The notes beneath the pieces are model-generated. The model did no database searches, was not told where the DNA came from, and saw only the letters and a program-made list of their open reading frames with translations. The translations under genes and the position numbers were made by a program. A DNA stretch of 64,000 bases, from the NCBI GenBank assembly GCA_037783545.1, contig JBBELK010000457.1, positions 248,001-312,000 on the forward strand, read 5' to 3'. Positions within the stretch are counted from its first letter, which is position 1. The number at the start of each line of letters is the position of its first letter. Source of the stretch: Henricia sp. BOLD:AAB3569. Taxonomy: Eukaryota > Echinodermata > Asteroidea > Spinulosida > Echinasteridae. Positions 17,863-64,000 of the stretch are shown here, piece by piece.

Positions 17863-18911
17863 TAGGGATCGGGAACCAATCTAACTGCCTGGGAAGCAAA
17901 ATGTGCACAGTGAATGGGCGGAGCTTACTGGATCAGTGTATTACAATCCTATATAAGTTTGTCGTGGCATTATTAACGTGTCGATTTTTATCGTGTGACC
18001 CCCGACCGTAGATTTACTCTATTCACGCGTTAGAACCAGCGGCGTAGCTACTATACGGGGCGGGGGCCCTGTCGCGCCACCCACTGGAAATGTGGCAAAC
18101 GGAGAAAATTGTTGTGCTACGGTTTTCCCCCAAAAAGTTTCATTTTCTATTTGGTATTGTATTTAATTTGTTTGTAATTCTGTAATTGATTTTGTCGAAA
18201 ATATGTAAATTGGTGTTTCTCTGTTAGAAAGTTCGATGATGTGATTGTAATATACTTGTACACTGAGTGAATTAACCACCAGACTACTAGCATATAGGGC
18301 GTTTCCAAGGGTTGCAAGCTGGTCCACAGTAACCGGCGCGAAAGTCTGTGCGGTACCATGGAATACCTCGAACATTACTATATGCATTTTTTAAGCTGGA
18401 CCTGAAATGAACATTTAAAACATGTTGTCATCGTACATTTTTGTCAAAATAACGAAATAGAACGTGTTTCTGGACTTGAAAAGGTGAAGACTCGAACGTT
18501 TCAAAACTGCAATGATGCATTCAGAAAGTACAGAAACGATTTTGGGCGTTTATATTTGTGCTCAGTGTAGTATAGTGCTTGAGTCAATTGTACGCGAGCG
18601 CCATATAGCGCGGTGGCATTTATGTAAATATATGGCGTTACTCCAGGACTTCTCCAAAAATATCACACAAATGGTATATCCTACGTCAGTCCTACCCCAC
18701 GCCCACCGGTGTACTCCCTCTTCGACGTACTCATATACGCCTAACCACTTCCAGGTAATGAATGATTGGGAGTAGCCCTCAAGGCGCAGCTGAGGGAGAT
18801 AGTACCATTCATTTAACATGAAGGGACCATTAGATTACAGCATTTCACCATCGGTGCAGTGTTCTATTGGTTTTGCCTCAAATAATCGTTAGGCAGCTGT
18901 GCTACTCCATT
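17863..18911. other. No gene seen
   Basis: 17862-17886 is an end fragment of the Mutator-like MITE (GGGATCGGGAACCAATCTA). Beyond that no exon or repeat is supported. Confidence 0.4.
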
Positions 18912-19262
18912 GGACACATTGGTGCGAACGTAACGGTTTGTCGGACACATTGGTGCGGACATAACGGTTTTTCGGACACATTGGTGCGGACATAACGGAT
19001 TTTCGGACACATTGCTGCGGACATAACGGATTTTCGGACACATTGGTGCGGACATAATGGTTTTTCGGACACATTGGTGCGGACATAACGGATTTTCGGA
19101 CACATTGGTGGGGACATAACGGATTTTCGGACACATTGCTGCGGACATAACGGATTTTCGGACACATTGGTGCGGACATAATGGTTTTTCGGACACATTG
19201 GTGCGGACATAATGGTTTTTCGGACACATTGGTGCGGACATAACGGTTTTTCGGATACTATG
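18912..19262. repeat. Minisatellite, 31-bp unit, about 11 copies
   Basis: Unit around GGACACATTGGTGCGGACAT plus AACGGATTTTC; period 31, with single-base variants (ACGG/ATGG, GGTG/GCTG). Partial units continue to about 19325. Because 31 is not a multiple of 3, the minus strand is open in all three frames. Confidence 0.95.
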
Positions 19263-19366
19263 GTGCGGACATAACGGTGCGCAAACATGCGCGGACATAA
19301 TGGTGAAAACGGACATAATGGGCCTGAACAGACGTCCGCGATTGTCAGTGAGTTCACACCGTGCTG

Positions 19367-19860
19367 TGTGTGTGTGCACTCAAGCTATTTGCCGTGTACT
19401 GTGCGCGGGGCAAATTTCTACACTCCACGGTAGCCTGCCGTAGCACGCGCTCGCTCCTGTTCTCCGGACTCTCGAAACAAACAATTATGTTCGAATTTTC
19501 ACACTTATGTTTAACTTTGTTTCATACCTGTATAAATAGTCTCTCTTTTGTGAACTACTTAATAATATTGGGGGGAAATCAGAGTTGAATTTGGTGCAGT
19601 TCTGCAGTTACAAACTTTTATACGGCTGGAAATACAACTAACTCACAAGACCACGTGACTTTTCGGAACCAGAATTTGGTTCCGAAAAGTCACGTGACCT
19701 TGGATTTTTCAAAAGTGCTCAAAAACGGCTAAATTTGACGGCGTCTTTTCAGGATATATCTAATTTACTCTCGAATGCGCTTCAGAATAATGTATGGGTC
19801 TATTTCAAGCCCAAAATAGCCCAACAAAGAAGGTGTGTTCCCGGAACCTGTAACACGGAC
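19367..19860 (+). repeat. Family K repeat, longest copy
   Basis: Matches 38715-38990 (GTGTGCACTCA, CTACACTCCACGGTAGCC, ACCTGTATAAA, TTGGGGGGAAATCAGAGTTG) and 3245-3860 at its right part. Confidence 0.75.
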
Positions 19861-29681: not shown

Positions 29682-32600
29682 TCACCATGCAATTGTCCCT
29701 GTTTCGGTCAAAATGGCCAACGTAAGAAACACCGCATAGAAAATGTACAGTAAGATGGCGTAGACCCTTGTGGCCCAGAACCTGGCTATTATCATGAAGA
29801 ACATTGAGGTGAAGAGGCTGATGCCTAGACCAGCTGCCAGAACAAACTGCAGTGTGTCTGTTTTTAACTGAAACAAAATAAGACACAGCAATGTTCAAAA
29901 TTATCAGAACACATGGCCAAAGGAAAGAAAACGTTTAGGAAAAAGAACATGCTCCTATTACAATCCCATCCTGATTACTGATGCATTTAAAAAATATATA
30001 TTAATGTCTCTTTTTTTTCTTCGTTTATACAAGAAAACTCTTCACGACGACACTGGTTTTGTAACAGTTAAATACGGTCCCTTATAGAGAGACGTATACG
30101 GCGTACCATATACTCTTACCTTGAAAATCCCGCCATTTTGAACCGTTGCTATAGTACATGCCAAACCAATTCCAATAAGCATATCTGTGTGGCCGGTTAA
30201 AGTCATACGAAATGAATTGCACAATGGCGGGAATGCTCTCAAAATGTCGGCTTTGGCTTGGCTATATAATTATTTAAATTATTTGTGTTAGATCAAGCCA
30301 ATTACACCGAGACATACAAAGAAAGAAAACAATTGATACAAACCCAAAGTATTATATATTTATTAAACTCGATACAGATGTGGACAAATGTCCATGAGTT
30401 TGGGAAATCTGGATGCATTGAAAAGCAACTTTCTGCGGACCTTCTGCTTAACGTGCAGATCTCGAATCACTGTATACCGTGATTAGAGAGCACCATTTAC
30501 GTTAAGCAGAAGGTCTGCGGTTCGAATCCTGGTGGAGCCAGGTTGCTTTCCAATGCATCCATATTTTCCAAAGGCAGGACTTTTGTCCACATCTGTATCG
30601 AATTTATTCACCCCGGCGCGGCGGACCCTGGGTCATAATCCATAAAAATAATCACTTATTCACATCTATTATTAAACTTAAGGTCTTTGTACCTATAGTG
30701 CGAGCCAAAATGACAACGCCCATTATCTGCAGTCCGTATAGACCCTTTGCACCTTCGTCGTTTGTCTGTTCTCGTAGCGCGCCGTTGGTTGTGTAATCGA
30801 TTCTGCCGTGCGGTTGTTTCGATGTTGGTATCGATTCTTACCTTTTTGACCAGACTTCCATTGGATACTGTAGTGCGCTTCTGGCTACTGGCAGACCAAT
30901 CACCGATCAGTAACTTGACCCCGTGATTCCCGCCATTAACTTTTATTTCTGCAGTAGATTTCGAGTGGCGATGTTTCTCATGACATTGCCCAGTGATGAG
31001 CTATTTCATGCATATGTTGCTTTAAATTCTATTTCTATGGCTGGAATTCATTTTGCATACAATGTTGCCAGATAGGGCAAGCCTCAAACATGCTTTGTGG
31101 TCGTTAAGAGCAACCCTTTGTTATTCAATTATGCATATAATTGTTATATCTTGCGAGAATCCCCTGTACATTGTTTTAAAGGATACTGAAGATAGGCCCA
31201 CCGAAACAGGCCGAAATGGCCATCTTGGGGGCGCCCTGCTTTGCCATGGCAATGTCAGACACCAGATCTGGTTATTATGCAAATACAAAACAAGACTATA
31301 GTTCGTCAAAAAGATTCGCAACCATTGCTTTTTTAAAGAAAATAAAGAAAATATTATATTTTAACTCGAGGCATAATGCCACAAAATTACCAATTTAACT
31401 TGCCCGTTGGATGAGAGAGGGGTACACTCCCCGCCCCGAGGGTCTTCTTGTTGTTGCTTTAGAGATCAATTTTCCGGTTATTATTTTTAAAAACAAACAA
31501 ACAAACGCTCATTTACTTACGAACCCACATCCAAAACCATGAAACATCAAATTTCTCCCCAAAAAATATTTGCCCATTAGCAAAACACGTTTTGCGTGTT
31601 TGTTTGCCTCAGGGTTGTAGTCGAGTCCATCACTAGTCTATCACAAGTCCAGTAACAAGAAGCAAAGGATGAACACGCACAAAATAATGCCTTTGTTTGA
31701 GTTCATTTGAAAAGCTTGTGACTTGAATTAAGACCCATTGTACAATGCATTGGCATATAAATTAATGATTGGAAATGACAGTGATTTTGTTTTTAAAGTC
31801 TGTTCCCAAATATTTCGACACGATAAGCAACTTCTTTCCCCTGAACTGCATAAACTCTATAATCATAATTATACTGAAAATGGATTATGTTCAGTGATAT
31901 TTTCTGCTAAGCCTCGTTACTTTGGGATATACGGGTACCTTGAAACACGTCACGTTTCTTGCAGAGAATTATTTGATGAAATCGACTCTTTTTGAGTCGT
32001 ATATTTAGAAGTGAAATTGGATATCCGCGTTCAGTTTGGGCTCACGTCGACGCATTTGCTCTGCACACGCGTGTTTATGCCTTTCATATCTTGCAAAATA
32101 TGCGAGAAATGTGACTGGATGGCAAACAAGGTTGGCAACCCTTTATTTACATTAATGTAAAACGGTGGACAAACCTTCCCACAAACTTGTCATGAAGGAA
32201 AGATGCAACATTTTGCCTTCTCTTATTTCTAATTGAGTGTAAATGAAATAAATTTCTAGAACGTTTTATTTAGTATTTTGTTTATTTATTTATCCTTTTT
32301 GCTGCAGCAGTTTATAAAACTAAGAAGGGGCGATACAATTAGTTGAAATACCGTTGCGGGGTAGGAGAGCCAATCAGATGCGCTCTTTTTAGAGTTATAA
32401 ACCAATGATATTATTACATTTTCCTATTTTATACCATTTTCCTGTAATTAGAATAAAAATGCATAAGTCAACATTTCAAAAATTATGCGTGAAGCTCTCT
32501 TGTCAAGTAATTGACAAAAACATACCTCCTATGCAATTTCCCCACGCAAGAAACGTCAGTCCTAAAATGGCGTCGCTCAAGTCGAACACAATGCCGTACA

Positions 32601-35600
32601 TCTAAAAGTGTATCGGGTATCAAAATAGACAATACTAAATTTGTATTTGCCCGTGTGTGAAAATAATTATTTGAAAAAAAATTCAAATCAATCCAATTCC
32701 GTCCGTTGACTAATGCCTTTCCTTAGTCAACAACAAATGAAAACTAAAGTGAACCCGTTTGTTTACCTTCTACTGATGTTGCAACACACACCCAGTTTAT
32801 CACATGTTGAAATTGACTTCACAGATTTATGCGGAGGTTGTTTTTATGCGTGAGGGACAGATAATCAATAACATTGACCAAAAAGAAAAATTTGTTATAT
32901 GTATTTTTGACTATTTCTTAAAAATTTGATGGCACAGTGTGCCCAGTCAAATTTATTCTGTTAATTTTTGTAATACGATTGTAAAATATGGACATTTATT
33001 TACAGATCGAGGTATTATTTTGATTAATTTAAGAAATGTTGAAATCTTCATTCAGTGTTTACCAGTTTTGGATCACGCTCTCTACGTACTTACCCTTAAT
33101 AAATTGACTATTTCGTTGGCGATGGCGTATATCCAACACACGGACATAATGAAGCCCAGAAAAGCAAATGCCTGGAGGAAACACGGACATCGTGTTAGAT
33201 AAAACAAAAATATCACAGTTTGGAAACATGCCAATTTAATCTGTGCTGTGTTTGTCGTTTATTTATTTTTTTATTTTTGTACACAAAACTATATGCATGA
33301 TTACATGATTGAAAAACGGCATACAAACGGCGTTATCTCCATGTGTGATTGAGGATGTGTGTGATAAAAACCAACCTGTGTACAATTCACCCCCAGTACC
33401 TCATCTACATTAAATGGAAAATTGCGTCAATGCTTCCAAGAAAAATGTGCGAAGCGACCGTTCTTATTTATGCTGGTTTCTGATACTGCACGGAAACGAA
33501 GCCATAATACCCCTTTGTAGTCAGGGGACTAATTTCTTTCGCAAGAGGGCGCCGTTGTAAAAAATATGCGTGCGCATACATTTATTTATATTAATCTTCG
33601 GTTATCGTTATCTTACAAAGTGTATCATCTCGGGCGAAATCATTGCATTGGACAGTTGGAACCACTTCTCTCTTCCATTTGGGTAAGGATTTTTTTTCTT
33701 CGGTCAAATGGTTGATTAAAACTTTTAAACATTGTAGAACATTATACGAGCTTTAAGTCACTTACAATGTGATAGGCGGGTGGCTGGTCTGCCCTGGATG
33801 TACAGAAGGCAAGAATCCAGAGAATAGCTCCCAAACACACCATCAAGTGCCACAGGTAGAACCCGTCTGCTAGGACTATGTCGTAACCTGTACATGTATG
33901 ATGTAGCAACCAAACAAACAGCTTCAAAATAGACCGAATATCGAATAGCGGCCATCTTAAGGGCACCTTTTATTTTGTTGTTTAAATTGTTTAACAATGT
34001 AAGTACAAAATGTTCAATTATGCATGTTCTCACGGAACAAACAAACTGCCCTACAAGATGGCAGCCATTTGATACTATATATATCCCCTTCAGTCACAGG
34101 AATTTCGACAGAAAAAGAAATCCCTTTCAACAAATGTACACATGTGATCGAAGGGGATAGGCCCTATATCAACTTTTGATATAAAATTGGTCAACAATGT
34201 AAGCACAAAAATGTACAACTATGCATTTCATGAAGGAACAAAGAAACTGCCACACAAGATGACAGATATTCGACACGTCCTCCGTCGGAAGTCAATTTTT
34301 CTTTCATTTTAAAATTTATCCCATGCGTAACAATTTAACAAAATGTCATCCGCCATCCTTCTCATTTTTATAGCAAGCCACTGTACAAATAGCAGCACAC
34401 ACAAGTTGCCATCACACAGAGTCGATTCTTTGTTCATGCATAGTATAAGCACATTTTATGCATATTCTTGAAACTCTAAAAAAAAACAGTGATAATAATG
34501 CTCATGAGTTGTGTCAAGATAAAGTCAACGATGTGGACCATTTGACTCAAATCTTCATCGGGAGATTCAAATTGCCCGATGAGGGCTATAAAACGTGGCA
34601 CACAAAGTTGACTACATTTCGAAACAACAGACGAATCGTCATAGAACTGAACACAAAATGTATACACAATGTAAACTAGAGTTCAAACTCGCTATAATAT
34701 CACTCACGTATACGGACTGTGTCGCTAATGGGCGACGCCATTTTGGCTTAACGCCAAAATGGCGGCGCCTATAACTTACTCTGCGTGATGACAACACACC
34801 AAAGCGGCCCGATTAGAAGTTGGAAGCAATTCAGGAGCTTGTTCCACGTGCATCGGTCGTGAAGAACGAGAGGAATGGTAATTTGGAGTAATAACTTGAT
34901 GGGGCACTGTAATAGAGAACAAAACCTTTTGCATGTAACCTTTGCTCTATGGCTGGCGTCTGGCGCCCCGAATTCTTCACATTTAAATGGAGGTGCAGTT
35001 TAGAAAGTCACATGCTATGTTATTGTTGCTATGTGGTGCACGCCATCGCCTAGCGTGTCAGGTTGCATTATGTCGATCATTCTCTCCTATATAGTGAACA
35101 CTGTATTGATTCTGTACTTCACACTTGCTGCGTGCACCACATAGCAACAACAATAGTCTGGTCAAATGTACATGAACAATTAATCTTAGCTCAATTTTGT
35201 TTTGTTCCCCAGCGCGGGAACGGCCTTTCAAAAATTTCAGTGTTTTTGACTGGTGCAATGGAATTGAATATTTCTTATTCTTTATTCATTCATATTGTTG
35301 AAAAATTTAAATGACATTTTTTTTGGTACATTTTTCTCTGCATTTAAGCTAGTGGATACGTAAACGTTAATTACCTTGTAAATTTCAAAACATTTCATGA
35401 CGCAGCCCTTTGTTTTCCACGTCGTAGTATCAATGGGGTTGATGTCCCTAACCAGCGCCCTCAACTGATACCCCGAGCTAAGGGTCGGTTTCCGTCTCCC
35501 AGGTAACAATGGCTCCTCTTCCAGGTTTCCGCCGCTGAATTCTTCCGGTTTGTTGGAGATGATTTCAACTGGGGAGGCGGCCCTGTTGCTTTCGTGATTT

Positions 35601-38600
35601 TCCGCGGGCTTGTCCGAAACACCCATTGTACCAAAGTTACTGGTAATCTTCGTTTGGGGCACCAGCGAATCCGTCTCGGCCGTGTCTTTTTCCAGATTTT
35701 CGGAGAGGTCTTTTTTGACGTCAGAGTCGTACATATTCTGAAAAGTTTCATAAGTGTTTGGTTTGCTTGCTGGTATAGATGTCTGGTCAAGATGGTATGG
35801 TATAGATGTCTGGTCAAATATTTCATGAGCATCGTCATTCGAAGTTGGTCCGATGGTCTCACATTTCTCTCCGAGTTTATTTTCACCATGCTCTTCTTCA
35901 GGTTCATGTTTGTCAAAGGAAGCTTTTAATTGGTTAACTTCTTCGTCGACGTCACTCGTGACGTCATGAGGCTGGTCGTTGTTGGGGCCCCCTTGCGGAC
36001 GTTCGGTGCCTTCTTCGACTGTTCGGGGTTCAGTTCGGCGTTTCTCGAACGCCTGCGCCAGAAGCACCACGCAGACGTAGCCGACATACAGCAGAAGAAA
36101 ACCTGAGAAAAGGAGATAAACTATATTCCGGATGTATCAATGGTATAAATAACACATGTAAAGAAGAATGTTGGTATTAGTTTGCATATAAATTTCAGCT
36201 ATATAGATGCATCAATGCTTCAAAAACCTTCAAAACCCATGGTTTTTGGTATATTTGTTTTTAAAAGCCGGTTTTAGTTGTTACAACAAGTACAATTTGG
36301 ATAGAAATAAACTCAGGTTGTGTTTGTTACCGTTGCACTCAGCACGTTCCAAAGTTTCCATGTCAACTCACAAAGTACAATTTTAGCGACTAAAGCGACT
36401 ATGTCACGGTTTGTTCATCCACAAAATTCTGCCGAAATTCGAAAAAGTTGAGCAAATTTGAGCTGTTTCGAAAATGTCCATTTATTTTTTTCAATTAAAA
36501 TAATTTGTTTATGTATAAGGTTCAAAATAGCGATTATTGATCAAAACAGAAGTTTGAACTTGCGGATAGAAATGCACTGATCGACCAATCAATTTGGAAT
36601 CGCTTTCAAGACTGTTCCGATTCAAATCCAGTGAAAGTGATTCCCTATATACGAAATGTGGCACTCAACGTCACGTCTCTTTTCTGAAGACAACTGAAGC
36701 CACGAGAATTTAGGTTGAGAGCGGCATACTACAAATAGTTGGCAACAATAGACTACTAAAGTGTGACGTCAGTTGCTGGGGTAACATGGGTATGAACATT
36801 CGCTGGTAATCGGAAACGTCAGTTGCTAAAGCGCAAGGAAACATTTCACTGGTTTTAGTGCAAGCCCATGTTTTTTTGTTTGGATCAATTGTTTCGTAAA
36901 ATTCATCCATAGAGCAAGTTCGGGCGGGCGACTATAGTTAACTAGACTAACCATAGTCGATCTAGATGTCACCCGAGCGCTGCGTGGTTTGACTAGCTAG
37001 TCTGACTCGAGGAACCAAGCCCCGGGGGTAGGTTCATCTCTAGTCAGTTGTAATCACGTCACTTTTCAAGATGGCGGAATTGAAGTTTTCCCTAAAAAAG
37101 TGTTAATTTATATCAGAATTAAAGATGAATTAATAATCAATTCTATGGTAGCTTTTAGTGAACGAGTTGAAATGTCTTTAATATACGAGGGCAAACAATT
37201 GCTTGTAAGTAGTTTTTGTAAACCGTTGACGGCGGCCAGTGCAGACGATTTTGGCCATGTTTGACTAGATTTGCCTGACGACGCGTTCGGGTGAAAAACA
37301 AACTACGCATGTGCGAAATTGACTAATGGTCAGCACCCGAACTTGCTCATAGAAGCACACAACCTAGTTGCCAACACATCACAAAAGGTGATGTTTTCAC
37401 TTTAGTACTCTATAGCAAACGTAATTTCGGAGTAGTTACATGGCGCTCCGCTGGCTTCAGTTTCACAGTCCGTTATTTATCCATCATTTAGATAAAACTT
37501 CTTACCCACTGCTTCGGCTGTCCCTATCTCCCCCGTGTACAAAATGTAGAAAGTCCAAAAGGCCACGCCCACAACAAAGATGGCGTCCCGTAGAAAGGGT
37601 ACCTCGGCAACGTGGAACGGTTGTAACATCGAAATGGTACCGGCAACACAAGTTGTGATAAACACGGCAGCGCCTTGGGAAAGAATAACACTTTATAAGT
37701 TATGAGTTTATAAGGCTCAAACGAATACATGTACTAGATGGCTTTAGTTGTTGACGATGCTATAAAATTAACACCACTTTTCCCCGTATGGATCGTGTCA
37801 CAAACCAAAACAAGCCTGTCGTTATACGCGCACATCTAATCATGCTTTGTATAATACATTTATGTCAGAATTAGAGGTCAAAATGCTTTTGTATTATGTG
37901 ACCTTTGACGCATTACTACACCAAATTTATGTAAAACACGCGAGCATATGCATATTTTTGCTAAGTAAGACTTAAGGCTATGCATGCATGGAAGTCAACA
38001 CGTGTATTAATGGAACATTCCATCTTTCAACTCATGAGCATGAAGACGATCAGAGGACACTGTTCGAAACGTTGAGTTCACACTCACCGGTTCTATTCAG
38101 AGCCACACATATACAAAAGAGTTTCACATAGTGCTACTGCAAATCCATACACACCAAAGATATCCATGCGAAAGCAATTGAATAAAGTGAAGTGCCTCAA
38201 GGCGCTATTTAAGCAAGCAAACTAGACGCGCCTCTTGTCTGTTTGACATGCCTGTTGTGGATGGTGCTGCCACAACACGTCACGAGAGGCATGTCAAACA
38301 GGCCCGAGACGCGTCTAGTTTGCTTACTAAAATGGCGCCTTGTCGTGTCACATTATTACATGAGTAGCCTATCTTGCGCCTACGGCCCTATATCATCTTA
38401 ACACTTACCAAAGAGAGCTCCTATTGCCAGACCTGCATCACCGTCCTTTGAGTGTGTGATGGCCGCAATGGCGCTGAACACATCAGGAGCACCATTCCCG
38501 AAGGCTAGGAATGTGACTCCGTGCAGAAATACATAGTTAAGGTTTACATTAATGTATTCAGTGTCATTATGAGGACATCTTTCTTAATACATGTGATATT

Positions 38601-41143
38601 TATCACATGACTCTCGTGAAACAAATGATAATGCTCCCTAGTCGAGATGTTCCCAAACCCTTTTTAAAGCAGGATTCAAAATCTTTTTCTAGATTTTTCT
38701 AGAAACATGATACTCGGCCGTGTGTGCACTCAGGCTATTCGCCGTGCTGCGCGAGGCAAATATCCTACACTCCACGGTAGCCGGCCGTTGCACGCGCTCG
38801 CTCCCGTTGTTCAACCTATGTTCAACTTTGTTTCATACCTGTATAAAGAGTCTCTCTTTTGTCAATTACTTATAAATATTGGGGGGAAATCAGAGTTGAA
38901 TTTGGTGCAGTTCTGCAGTAAGAAACTTTCATGCGGCTGGACACAAAACTAACTCGCAAGACCATGTGACTTTTCGGAACCAGACACCTAAAAATATAAT
39001 GTAATGTATTTTTGTTGTGTCCGCCTGTCCGAAACAAGCTGACATAACAAATCTGATGGGCAAAACCCCTCCCTGGTGGTAAAACCCCCTCCTGAAAAAA
39101 ATCCTAGATCTGCCCCTGCACGGTAAACTTTGACTACAACTGTACGCCATTATGACCAGAATGCATAGTTTGGCACCATCCCAATAGGCGGTTTCAATTG
39201 TATAAAGCTAATTCAGGGGACCCGACTGGCTTCCTCATGTAAGGACTTCGTTTTTAAAGTTAATAGTTTGTGTTAAAAGTTTGCTGTAAAGTTTTGTAGG
39301 TTCTCTCCTTGTCGCGAGGTGGCGCCCTTTCACTTAGGCTTCTTACCGCCTGCACAATCTTTACACAGGTAGGGTGTCAGTTTTTGGACTAATATTTCTA
39401 TCACTATTTTGGGAAATATAACATGAACATAATGACCCATTATTATTACCAGTTTATCCGCATATGTTTATAGATCATGGATGGTTGTTCATTATATATA
39501 TGTTTACCGACAAAAGTGTGATTTTGAGGAGGTTTAGGACATGACACTGCCGAGATTTTGAGTACGGCGATATGTTTACGTTACACACGTGCAGCGTATT
39601 GCACTGTGTGTGCATTGTATAATGCGTGTCAATATAGAAACATTACATGTAGTGGAATTATACGTTTATTTGTATTTACATGTGGGTTTGCGCGGGTGTC
39701 ACTGGTGTTACTGGACATCGGGGGTACAGGTGTGTTTCTTGTGTGAGTGATGCTGGGCCCAGCGATGTGTGTTCGTGACTGTAACCCTCTTGCTCGGTAC
39801 ATCTTTGACACTGGTGCAGTACTCACATGCTTGTTATTAGTGATGATCTTTTGCATTTATCAGTTTACTTGCAGACGTGGTTTATTGGACTATGAGGATT
39901 GCTTGTTATTAATTTAAGTGAACTTGGACAACCGAACGTAGTTATTTTAATAACCCACACCGAACACAATTTGTCAAGTTGCATATACTAATTCTGTATT
40001 GTGTCTTTCCGCCTGCACAATCTTTACACAGTTTGTGCAGGCTATCTATTCTAGGCATGGTGAAGGCACTGCGAATAAACCAGTTCCGACTGGAGAGATC
40101 CCAGAAAGAACCTGCTGTCCCCCTGTGTCCCTGATTGGAGTTCTGGCCACCCAAACCCTTGGAGAATCCCTGACCCCCCTTCCCTGTCCTTACACTCAGA
40201 AGCAAGAAAGGATATCGCGACGTTCTCGCTCAGCCTCAACGCTTTCGAAACTGTCAGCAGAGCGGGGCAAAAACTAGGAGGAAAAACAACAGAAAACTCT
40301 GTGAAATTTACAAAACATCGTGCATCATTATTTGCATGCATGGGAAACTCTATTATTAAATTACCAGCAGCCGCATTTATGTGAAGGGTTTTTTTATTTA
40401 AATGAAGTAAAATTGGAAGGCCGAATTTGGAATACTATCTGCATACATAGCGCCACAACGATTGCAAGGATGTATAGGAAGATAAAGTTGCTGCACACGT
40501 TCATGGTGTTCTTGACCAATGTTCAATTCTGAAATTTTTAACGCGTCAAACTTTGATTCTGCTTTAAGGTAATTACAAAAAGGGAGACGGGTTTTCGGAG
40601 AATCAATTCATTACAATATTTCTCTCCCCACCTTTCACCTCTGGCGTCCCGGGTTCGATTCAGGATTGTGTTTGCAGTCCCTACTTGACCGCGTGGGTTT
40701 TATTCCACTTCTAAAACTGCATCTCCTTCTCTATCATCATAAAGTAAAGTTGAACCTAATATATTGATGGCATTAAAGGCAATTTCGATAATGCACCTAT
40801 AAATTGTCCACGCCCCCCCCCCCCCCCCTCGCCCACCCCCCCCCCCCCCCTCCCCCCCCCCCCCTCCCCCCCCCCCCCCCCCTCCCCCTACCCCCCCACC
40901 CCACCCCATCACCCCCTACCCCCCCCCCCCTCCCTGTCCCCCCGCGGTGCGTGGGGGTTTGGTCACGTTTTTTATGCCCCAGGGTGGGGATTTTGACCCA
41001 ACTTTCTATGCATCTGTATACAAGACGAGCATGTTTTGCACCCAAGGGTGGGGATTTTTGTCACCTAAATTTTGCCCCTAAATTTTGCCACCTAATTTTG
41101 TACGCAAAAAGCGACAATCCCCACCTCTTAGGAGGAGCAGCCA

Positions 41144-41174
<31 letters not shown>

Positions 41175-43913
41175 AATTGATGGGTACATAACAGCAACTT
41201 ACAAATTCTTTGCCGTGACTCCGAGACAGACAAACAGGAACGTGAGCCAGACGAACTGAATGGAATAAAGCATTTTTTTCAGTTGTGTTTTAGGCACACA
41301 TGAATTGTTATGCTAATGAATTTACATATTCATGAGCAAAGCTGTGATGACGTCGTCTCACCCCAACAACCACAAAACTCTATCAAACGTAGGAGGAAAT
41401 ATATACAAAGGAAAAGACTTCTGTAAAAATGTCGGTGTCATTTTAAGTGGCTTCTTGATATAATGAACTGCATAGTTTAATCGGTTTGATTATTATGACA
41501 TTTGCAACAATCTTACAAAATTGATTGAGTCAAAACTACATGTACATCAGTGAGCTGTTGCTCTATAAAGTGAAATGCGTTTTTTCTTCTTGTTTTTTTA
41601 ACTGTGGGTTCCCTCCATGGCTAGGTATGAACAGCACTCCCTGTCATTGACATTTTGAAAGGCAAAAGGAGAAATTTCTATGTGAAATAAAAGCAAATTT
41701 GAATTTGCCCTTTTTACTGCAGTAAAAACCATCTATTGATTTGGCGTTAATTTTAATCTCACAAAACATTTAATATGAGACTAAGGTGTTCCCGCACATT
41801 TTAAAACAGTTTTCATTCAAATTCATAACCGGTTAACTTCAATTTCGTCTCGAAAATTACTGACTTTGCATTTCACATTTTCGGGCTGTCCAATTTCGTA
41901 TTTGGTCGCTCGTGATCGTCTTTGTCCAAACCATGTTTGTACGTTTGCATACTTTTTCGAAAAATATTCAATTTCGTCGTCAGCAGTTGCCAAACGTACG
42001 ACGAATGAAGCAATTTCGTCATTTGGAAATCGATTTCACACGTATTTCATTTGAATTAGTCACTGACAGGTTTGTACAGTCTGACCATCTGACTAATTTG
42101 ATAGACAAATTATTGAAGTCGGTTAAACAAAGACGAATTCAATATTTACATGATGTTGATGATCTTCAGGTGAGACGAATTTGACTAAAATCTTACGAAG
42201 TTGAATGGACAATATTGAAATGGATTTAAAGTCATTGATCATTTGGAAAGACCAATGACTAAAATAATTGTAGCATTTGCGCGTTTCACTCGTCTTGGGA
42301 CGAAATTTAATTTAACCGGTTATGAATTTGATTGAAAAGAGTTTTAAAATGTGCAGGAAAACCTATATTATGTAAATTTACTTACCAGAATTATTAGCGC
42401 AAGTACTTGAAGGTCATCGAATGAGCAGTAGGTAAACTCAAGATAGTTGATGAAACCATTCTCTGGTTGACAGTCCTCCGTAGTTCTTATGAACCCACAT
42501 TGCTTGCCCGATTCAAGATCGTGGTAGTAGATGCACTGTAAATACATGGAGGGCAATTGGAGGGAGGGGACAAAATGGACGCCAACAATGACCATCACAT
42601 GTGACGTTGGTCAAAAAAGTCTCGGCTGTGGTTGGCTGCTGCCTCACGTGACAGGCATTCTACTGTGATATTGATCCATTTCATCCAACAAGAAACATGG
42701 CTGGATAAGAAACATTGTTGGATAATGTTGTCGGATGGTGTTCACACCATCCAACTTTAGGTCTGCCGACATCGTAAGATAACAAAATGTTGGCTCGTGT
42801 ATATAAGACAAGCCTTAAGGTTGTATGCCAACGATATTGTCCAAAATAATTAATACATTTTTCAAGGGAAACCCACGCCATTTCACATGTTTTAGACTAT
42901 CACCCACAAATAAAAAGAAAATCACAATCATTTTGTACCTTCACTTTTTGCGTTTGCAAATACTGTATGTTGGATTTAATGTATGCAACAGAAATCTTCA
43001 TTTCAGTCCATTTGGTAACGTATGTCTAGACACTAAACGTTGATATCATTGTCGTCAAAAAATATGCGCTTAATGTAAAAGACGATACATTACACCAACA
43101 GAACATTAAACGTCAATTTACATCACCATCGACTTGAATTTGCTCCTCATGTCTGTGGGTAATGTGTAGTATTTTAGAACATAATCTACATGTATGTAGA
43201 TCTGTGGTCTTTGCGTTGGCGCATCATCAGAAACCGAAGACCTCTGGTGCGCGACATCGGCACCTGCATCCAAGGCCACATTATACGGCTGGATTTACAC
43301 CGAGCTTTTTCGCGCGTGTACGTGGCACCTTTTGTGGCAAGGCTGGTTGCATCAACCCCCATAAGAGCCACCGAGACAGGGTGCCCCACTCCGCTTGAAG
43401 TGCCTTCCTGAGGTCCTGCACTTCTAGCGCTGTTTGGAAGACTCGCGGATCCAAAGGTCAGGTTATCGAGTTTAAAACCCAACAAAACTCCTTTTTTGAG
43501 AACCCTTTACTGTGGGATTCCCCCAGAAACAGGAAATGTCACATTTTATTGCTGTGAGAATCACTTTTTTCAAACAGGTCCTCTTCAATCTGGAGGAAAT
43601 CACTGAAGCGGAACAATTTTGAAAGTGATTCCAACGTAAATGGTCGATCAGTGCCTTCCTATCCACAAGTTAACTGTATTTAACAAACTTCTGTTCTGAT
43701 CAGGAATCAACATTTTAAGAAAATGGTTTTTAACCGTATAATTTTACACTGTAGACTTACAGAGGTGTTGGGCGTACTATCTTGTGCATCTTCGCTGTCA
43801 GCAACGTCTTCCACTTCCAAGCCAGCGAAAATACAGGAGACCACCGTTATTAGAAAAATAAAGGTGGTTCGAATCCGGTATGTGCACCATCGACTTAGGC
43901 AAGGACCATCCAT
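29682..43913 (-). CDS. SLC8B1: Mitochondrial-type Na+/Ca2+ exchanger (NCLX family), 13 coding exons
   Basis: Predicted cation/Ca2+ exchanger of the NCLX branch, which in vertebrates exports Ca2+ from mitochondria in exchange for Na+ or Li+. Exons in transcription order: 43913-43761, 42535-42386, 41255-41203, 40273-40216, 38520-38409, 37673-37506, 36102-35375, 34906-34780, 33887-33766, 33171-33094, 32601-32526, 30250-30120, 29867-29682. Together they encode 713 residues with every phase matching; human NCLX is shorter, at about 584. An N-terminal hydrophobic segment (about 17-31) is followed by the family's cysteine-rich segment (CGFIRTTEDC, 64-73). The alpha-1 repeat has GNGAPD at 146-151. 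Exon 7 encodes a transmembrane segment and then a long acidic cytosolic loop. The alpha-2 repeat reads AWGNCIG (602-608). The last exon gives two membrane helices and ends in TGA. Intron 4 is AT-AC. The exon 12 acceptor is weak; a site 6 bases upstream would add two residues. The 5' UTR is not resolved. Confidence 0.9.
30364..30606. mobile_element. MITE with tRNA-like centre, exchanger intron 11
   Basis: Arms CTCGATACAGATGTGGACAA and the complement TTGTCCACATCTGTATCGA, plus ATGCATTG/CAATGCAT. A GCGGTTCGAATCCTGG B-box-like word is in the centre. Confidence 0.75.
31738..31995 (+). pseudogene. Orphan ORF of 85 residues within an exchanger intron
   Basis: An AT-rich open frame antisense to the NCLX-like gene, inside its intron between 30250 and 32526. 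The product is mixed and plausible (for example SAKPRYFGIYGYLETRHVSC) but I recognise no domain. There is no upstream splice signal of note. It could be a fragment of a decayed mobile-element gene or a chance ORF. Confidence 0.15.
34975..35190. repeat. Family A repeat, exchanger intron 7
   Basis: Inverted ends TTGTTGCTATGTGGTGCACG and GCGTGCACCACATAGCAACA. Other copies: 14690-14930, 20990-21215, 50045-50270, 53485-53730. Confidence 0.75.
35375..36102 (-). other. Exon 7 of the NCLX-like gene: large acidic loop
   Basis: This 728-base exon is far larger than the other exons (53-186 bases). After a hydrophobic segment (FLLLYVGYVCVVLLAQAF, residues 233-250) it encodes about 190 residues rich in Glu, Asp, Ser, Thr and Pro. 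Near its end it returns to family sequence around NPIDTTTWK. In the family this is the cytosolic or matrix loop between the two alpha repeats, where regulatory phosphorylation occurs. A 9-residue unit, DQTSIPYHL, is tandemly repeated (27-base period starting at 35771 and 35798), which shows recent growth of the loop. Confidence 0.8.
36750..37411. mobile_element. Family J MITE, interrupted
   Basis: Ends AGACTACTAAAGTG and CACTTTAGTACTCT flanked by AT. It is interrupted at 36913-37347 by a second element. The uninterrupted copy is at 44821-44984. Confidence 0.8.
36913..37347. mobile_element. Fold-back element nested in a MITE, 5-bp duplication
   Basis: Ends AGCAAGTTCGGG and CCCGAACTTGCT. CATAG flanks both sides (36908-36912 and 37348-37352). 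Same family as 8999-9148. Confidence 0.85.
38199..38342. mobile_element. Short palindromic MITE, exchanger intron 5
   Basis: Arms CAAGGCGC and AAGCAAGCAAACTAGACGCG pair with the right end; an inner pair is TGTTTGACATGCCT/AGGCATGTCAAACA. It lies 67 bases from exon 5. Confidence 0.8.
38521..40215 (-). other. U12-type AT-AC intron (intron 4 of the NCLX-like gene)
   Basis: On the minus strand the intron opens with ATATCCTTT directly after the GCG codon that ends exon 4. It closes with CTGCAC directly before GGA of exon 5. A CCTTAAC branch-point motif (38536-38542) sits about 15 bases from the 3' end. These three features are the consensus of introns removed by the minor (U12) spliceosome. No GT-AG pair nearby restores the conserved reading NVA|GVTFLAFGNGAPD, while the AT-AC boundaries restore it exactly in phase 0. 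Confidence 0.88.
38715..38990 (+). repeat. Family K repeat inside the U12 intron
   Basis: Matches 19367-19690 over almost its whole length. Confidence 0.7.
40610..40788 (+). mobile_element. tRNA-derived SINE, exchanger intron 3
   Basis: CCTTTCACCTCTGGCGTCCC, B box GGGTTCGATTC, TTTGCAGTCCCTACTTGACC and CCACTTCTAAAACTGCATCT. It directly abuts the MITE that starts at 40789. Confidence 0.7.
40789..41191. mobile_element. Family B MITE beside a splice donor, poly-C and poly-G arms
   Basis: Ends TGCACCTATAAATTG and CAATTGATGGGTACA, flanked by TAA on both sides, as in Harbinger-type elements. The left arm holds about 70 bases of almost pure C (from 40813), the right arm about 30 bases of pure G (41143-41172). 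The element stops 11 bases inside the intron after exon 3. Confidence 0.8.
41784..42366. mobile_element. Terminal inverted-repeat element, exchanger intron 2
   Basis: Arms of about 55 bases share CACATTTTAAAAC and CAAATTCATAACCGGTTAA. The open frames inside are not supported as genes. It ends about 20 bases from exon 2. Confidence 0.8.
43225..43735 (+). repeat. Dispersed repeat, copy 2, exchanger intron 1
   Basis: Matches 10935-11370. It ends about 25 bases from exon 1 of the exchanger. Confidence 0.75.
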
Positions 43914-63439: not shown

Positions 63440-63511
63440 TGCCTTATAGCTCAGCTAGTAGAGCGTCTGCCCGGTGATTCAGAGGTCTCGGGTTCGAATC
63501 CCGATAAGGTC
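63440..63511 (+). tRNA. tRNA-like sequence with good D and T arms
   Basis: GCCTTA pairs with TAAGGT as most of an acceptor stem. GCTC/GAGC forms the D stem and CGGGTTCGAATCCCG a perfect T arm. The anticodon arm has 18 rather than 17 bases (TCTGCCCGGTGATTCAGA), and no encoded identity is clear. A partial second copy lies at 63641-63678. Likely a tRNA-derived repeat rather than a working gene. Confidence 0.4.
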
Positions 63512-64000
63512 CTTACGAAGTTTGGTTGTTTTATTTCAATGGTGATCAGGAACCATACCAGATGTTGCGTTTGTTACTTTGCCCAGTTGCGCTACCATGC
63601 AACACCGAGAGAAGAACGGGGTCCATAGAGAAATCCTGGTAGAGCGTCTGCCCGGCGAGTCAGAGGTCTCGGGTTATCACACATGGGGATAGCGCCGTTT
63701 GTAACAGTCGTCCAATCGTGCAATCCATATTTAATTAGCGTGGTTGTTTAAAAAAACTTGTCAACATACCAAATGTGGTATGTGTTTTAAAAAGCGAGGT
63801 ACACAAATTAAAACATTACGAAGCAAATTGCACCTCTTCAAAACACCGCATCATACAGTTATTTGGTCTGTTAACAAAAAAATTAGTAACGTTAAAAGTA
63901 TATCATGTCCTGAAAATGTTCTCCTCAAATGACAGGTTTCATAATTTGCAACCAAAGGTAAACACAAGCATGTGTGACTCTCTATGTACTCATGTGTAAT
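63512..64000. other. No gene seen
   Basis: Apart from the partial tRNA-like copy at 63641-63678 there is no supported feature. Confidence 0.4.

Follow-up and report, generated by a model that had tools for sequence, protein, structure and literature searches.

Does the intron with AT-AC ends that interrupts the first ion-binding repeat of an NCLX-like exchanger gene belong to the U12 class, and which spliceosome would the gene then depend on? According to published abstracts, minor introns make up less than 0.5% of all introns. To answer the question, we analysed the gene in the window, i.e. the whole stretch of 64 kb that contains it, and searched the genome from which the window comes for further copies and for parts of the minor spliceosome.

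The window contains an NCLX-type exchanger gene

The coding part of the gene lies on the minus strand and was modelled from 43913 to 29682 (Table 1). When comparing the predicted protein to the PDB, the top match is NCLX (9ps1, E 5.2e-117) with both halves aligned, and the next family is NCX1 (E 2.2e-4). The Pfam family PF01699 (Na_Ca_ex) matches two stretches of the protein with 164 bits. Both alpha repeats match NCLX better than other Na_Ca_ex proteins. By its sequence, the gene is an NCLX/SLC8B1-type exchanger, for which mitochondrial location and Na+/Ca2+ exchange are predicted properties. It is very improbable that the gene is a pseudogene, whose introns would carry little weight: 718 residues are open across the 14 exons without a stop, the NCLX match is strong across both repeats, and a second gene has the same intron positions where these were compared.

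Table 1. Coordinates in the window of the NCLX-like gene and of the parts that surround its two putative minor introns
Feature	Position	Strand	Description
NCLX/SLC8B1-like gene, coding part	29682..43913	-	14 exons, 718 aa, 13 introns; open spliced model
Exon 4	40216..40273	-	58 nt; ends ...SENVA, phase 0
Intron 4	38521..40215	-	predicted U12-type, AT-AC, phase 0, 1695 nt
Intron 4, U12-type 5' splice site	40207..40215	-	ATATCCTTT, 0 mismatches to RTATCCTTT
Intron 4, branch-site core	38536..38542	-	CCTTAAC, 0 mismatches to CCTTRAY
Exon 5	38409..38520	-	112 nt; GVTFLAFGNGAPD..., first ion-binding repeat
Exon 12	31187..31267	-	81 nt; ends ...ACFGGPIF + one base, second ion-binding repeat
Intron 12	30185..31186	-	second predicted U12-type, GT-AG, phase 1, 1002 nt, second ion-binding repeat
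Exon 13	30120..30184	-	starts in Asn codon of GGPIFNMLIGIG

Of the 48 open frames listed for the window, 20 further long ones were compared to Pfam and matched no family, and we thus name no neighbouring gene. Overlapping open frames at 18864-19384 on the minus strand consist of tandem units, each about 20 residues long and MSAPMCPKNRYVRTNVSE-like. A tRNA match with 39.5 bits is present at 63440-63512 on the plus strand, and by eye, similar tRNA-like stretches at about 40620 and 44340 resemble SINE copies. Furthermore, intron 3 of the NCLX-like gene contains long C-rich and G-rich tracts at 40800-41180.

Intron 4 has the ends and signals of a U12-type intron

A preliminary description of this locus had proposed an AT-AC intron in phase 0 together with its branch motif, and we found its coordinates, ends, motif and phase to be exact to the base. 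On the minus strand, the exon ending ...GAGAACGTCGCG is followed by ATATCCTTTCTTGC at 40216/40215, and AACCTTAACTATGTATTTCTGCAC precedes GGAGTCACATTCC at 38521/38520. The placement is fixed: the intron opens with A but the next exon with G, and exon 4 closes with G but the intron with C, so that the junction cannot slide. Splicing at these boundaries results in SENVAGVTFLAFGNGAPD, which is gap-free at the junction when compared to the NCLX chain 9ps1 (LSENVAGVTFLAFGNGAPD); the AT-AC boundaries do restore the conserved family motif, as had been claimed. If the intron is retained, translation stops 54 codons past NVA.

To score the 13 introns of the model, we counted mismatches to the U12-type donor RTATCCTTT and to the branch core CCTTRAY. 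Intron 4 matches both exactly, and its CCTTAAC core ends 15 nt before the 3' end of the intron. The first two places of the longer branch consensus TTCCTTRAY are unmatched (AACCTTAAC, compared by eye). Intron 4 thus combines the U12-type donor, a branch core near the 3' end and AT-AC termini that join the coding frame. Apart from intron 12, which is described below, the other 11 introns have two to six mismatches in the donor and two to four in the branch core.

Across both strands of the window, the exact donor RTATCCTTT occurs five times, compared to 1.8 occurrences expected from base composition, and two of its three matches on the minus strand lie exactly at exon ends of the NCLX-like gene (40215 and 31186). 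An exact CCTTRAY is located 7-20 nt upstream of 32 of the 14186 AC/AG positions in the window; with up to one mismatch, this number rises to 660. As a rough product that assumes independence and is no formal test, the signals of intron 4 would coincide by chance about once in ten million for a given exon pair.

Could the transcript instead use ordinary splice sites close by, so that the AT-AC ends are an artefact? We considered GT/GC-AG pairs in which, counted from the AT-AC ends, the donor lies between -57 and about +400 and the acceptor between -400 and about +100. None of the 50 pairs that are open and in frame restores SENVAGVTFLAFGNGAPD, in agreement with the earlier statement that no GT-AG alternative does so. 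Cryptic U2 sites are known to occur near U12 sites, and the pair that ranks first among the 50 on a simple ad hoc consensus score, donor 40193 (AGT/GTAAGG) with acceptor 38517, is open and in frame. However, this pair replaces GV in a conserved helix by ISFLASEF and thus disrupts a stretch that is common to the NCLX chain in the PDB. In addition, the paralogue described below has no AG at the place matching acceptor 38517, where it reads CAAC/GGTG, whereas it keeps the exact U12 donor, the branch core and the AC end of intron 4. We thus consider the use of such a nearby pair extremely unlikely.

The opening codons of intron 4 (ISFLAS, 40198-40215, minus strand) are similar to the opening codons of exon 5 (GVTFLAF). 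This likeness is probably a coincidence, since the paralogue keeps only ISF, which is fixed by the donor consensus.

Equally improbable is that intron 4 has genuine AT-AC ends and is nevertheless spliced by the major spliceosome. Such AT-AC U2-type introns do exist, as in some sodium channel genes; in the available text of PMC2831892 they have G at +5, whereas intron 4 has C at this position, next to the full donor ATATCCTTT and the exact branch core. Based on these sequence signals, the assignment of intron 4 to the U12 class is near certain.

A second putative minor intron interrupts the second repeat

The earlier account of intron 4 was correct but incomplete, as the same gene appears to contain a second U12-type intron. 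The donor of intron 12, GTATCCTTT, has no mismatch to the U12-type consensus, and a branch core, CTTTAAC, is found 11 nt before the 3' end with one mismatch. The junction is gap-free compared to NCLX in the PDB (ACFGGPIFNMLIGIG). When intron 12 is retained, a stop follows right after SIL. The inexact branch core counts against the assignment of intron 12, as both the window gene and the paralogue deviate from the consensus at one place.

As the two introns lie in two repeats of one protein, we also considered that they arose by duplication of the repeat. We rejected this origin because neither their positions in the repeats (NVA/GVTF compared to GGPIF/N) nor their phases are alike.

The paralogous NCLX gene shares both introns

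We searched the genome (740.7 Mb, 2104 contigs), which judging by its gene content is probably that of an animal, with PF01699 and the NCLX protein as queries and found NCLX exons on three contigs, i.e. C457, which carries the window gene (A), C564 and C720. The copies on C564 and C720 align in 43 pieces, some of which overlap, with a mean identity of 92.9%. They probably represent two alleles of one paralogue or stem from a recent duplication, and we counted them as a single independent gene (B). Aligned over the first repeat, 121 of 181 residues are shared between A and B, 90 of 179 between A and the PDB chain, and 107 of 180 between B and the PDB chain.

Both introns are present in all three NCLX loci at identical codon positions and with the same termini, AT-AC for intron 4 and GT-AG for intron 12. 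In B, intron 4 reads CAGAATATTGCA/ATATCCTTTTG...TTCCTTAATGACAAACCAAC/GGTGTAACC, with lengths of 2520 and 5539 nt in the two copies, and both copies have the branch core CCTTAAT 11 nt from the 3' end. Intron 12 of B reads GGACCTCTGTTCA/GTATCCTTTTACC...TTCCTTAAACTAGTCCTTTTCAG/ACATGCTCC (847 and 779 nt) and has the donor GTATCCTTT and, 14 nt from the 3' end, the branch core CCTTAAA with one mismatch. Nine of the ten introns scored on C564 are ordinary and the tenth is intron 4; this scoring left out the cytosolic-loop exons and the last intron, the first exon lay outside the comparison, and intron 12 was read separately. Within intron 4 of C564 and C720, a further exact ATATCCTTT occurs with near-identical sequence before it, and no exon ends there.

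In six other Na_Ca_ex loci of the genome (L002, L003, L004, L005, L018 and L020), the position of intron 4 lies inside one continuous exon. L002 and L003 are identical where aligned, as are L018 and L020. The count of six excludes L011, whose match begins two residues before the position, as well as matches of the second-repeat kind. Since these loci read through, the position of intron 4 seems to be a feature of the NCLX branch in this genome. A scan with a three-sequence NCLX alignment for contigs encoding a relative returned 34 pattern matches on viral contigs and 47 on genome contigs, none of which was confirmed.

As the paralogous copies share codon positions and termini, both putative U12-type introns are older than the duplication that separated A and B. 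The preliminary description had suggested that intron 4 may be ancient; judged from these sequences, the age of both introns goes back to this duplication and only that far.

Parts of the minor spliceosome are found in the same genome

A full-length gene for U6atac was detected in the genome (Rfam RF00619, 138 bits, E 2.5e-35). Its 5' region is complementary to six or seven nucleotides of each donor; for intron 4 these are the seven nucleotides TCCTTTC, which extend one base beyond the 9-mer ATATCCTTT. According to the available text of PMC7367187, the 48K protein makes sequence-specific contacts with the U12-type donor. We found three zinc-finger matches of the U11-48K type in the genome. One of them is a U11-48K-like CHHC exon that matches 2vy4 (E 4.9e-5), with GTSF1 third (3.5e-4). 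The other two, L031 and L032, are about 0.7 kb apart on contig C387 and were not counted. L031 was rejected as U11-48K, its best match being GTSF1, which is a protein of the piRNA pathway.

The U12 snRNA was not found with its Rfam family in a search in which just 44 of 89056 candidates were scored and which was positive in none of 14 control genomes. Two U12 core patterns, which a diverged gene could escape, matched nowhere in the genome, one allowing two mismatches over 28 nt and the other one mismatch over 19 nt. The missing match is a gap in the evidence and no sign that the U12 snRNA is absent.

From what is established about the minor spliceosome, U11 with its 48K protein would read the donor, U12 would pair with the branch site, and U6atac would take over from U11 at TCCTT(T). 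Introns 4 and 12 would thus be directed to the minor spliceosome and the 11 ordinary introns to the major one. The proposal that intron 4 has the minor-spliceosome consensus is borne out by the exact donor and branch core, by the same termini in both other NCLX copies and by the spliceosome parts in the genome. We are therefore highly confident that a true U12-type AT-AC intron in the first alpha repeat and a U12-type GT-AG intron in the second are present in this NCLX gene, and we infer that the minor spliceosome removes them. That expression of the exchanger should depend on minor splicing, as the preliminary description had suggested, is a fair expectation that follows from the U12 class. 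Because retention of either intron stops the frame within or near an ion-binding repeat, a functional exchanger should need minor splicing twice per transcript.

Implications and comparison with known minor introns

We compared our results to the available parts of five publications on minor introns (PMC7367187, PMC2831892, PMC10639083, PMC6865273 and PMC6717393). Several U12 introns per gene are a known pattern there (PMC7367187, PMC2831892), and in each of 21 genomes tested, U12 introns are clustered within the same genes (PMC7367187). AT-AC introns are reported to account for 26% of human U12 introns (PMC7367187), and phase 0 is reported to account for 22% of minor introns on average. Intron 4 is therefore of a less common subtype and phase, and ordinary in kind. 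As far as the available text of PMC10639083 states, minor introns are generally not conserved any better than major ones, so that age should not be assumed from the U12 class. The class is well known, and among the matches listed in the literature searches there was no mention of minor introns in SLC8B1/SLC24A6/NCLX; U12DB, MIDB, IAOD or supplementary lists may include this gene.

A gene with two minor introns is a candidate for control via minor splicing. It is possible, though we would not expect it, that NCLX is an ancient gene with two minor introns across animals, and that the main Na+-driven exit of calcium from mitochondria is thereby bound to the capacity of the minor spliceosome, alongside voltage-gated Na+ and Ca2+ channels. 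If this were true, changes in the level of U6atac would shift mitochondrial calcium efflux. Should both introns prove widespread in NCLX genes, the efflux of calcium from mitochondria would be added to the ion-handling functions that are expressed via the minor spliceosome, with possible consequences for how defects of this machinery act. If the introns are instead confined to this lineage, they would present a clean case of the AT-AC and GT-AG subtypes being retained together across a gene duplication.

Among known systems, NCLX/SLC8B1, the mitochondrial Na+/Ca2+ exchanger, is of the same protein family as the window gene, by sequence. SLC9A7/Nhe3, a Na+/H+ exchanger, belongs to a protein family unrelated to NCLX. 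Like the gene described here, it is a cation exchanger gene with an AT-AC U12-type intron; its row in the fly-human table of PMC2831892, as available, gives U12 in both last columns, whose meaning is uncertain, and lists one such intron, compared to two U12-type introns here. A further parallel is given by the SCN and CACNA1 genes, which also function in ion transport: in the available text of PMC2831892, most mammalian members have two U12-type introns, and these were kept through gene duplication. They encode another protein family, whereas the gene presented here encodes a Na_Ca_ex exchanger and would carry an AT-AC intron in the first ion-binding repeat and a GT-AG intron in the second.
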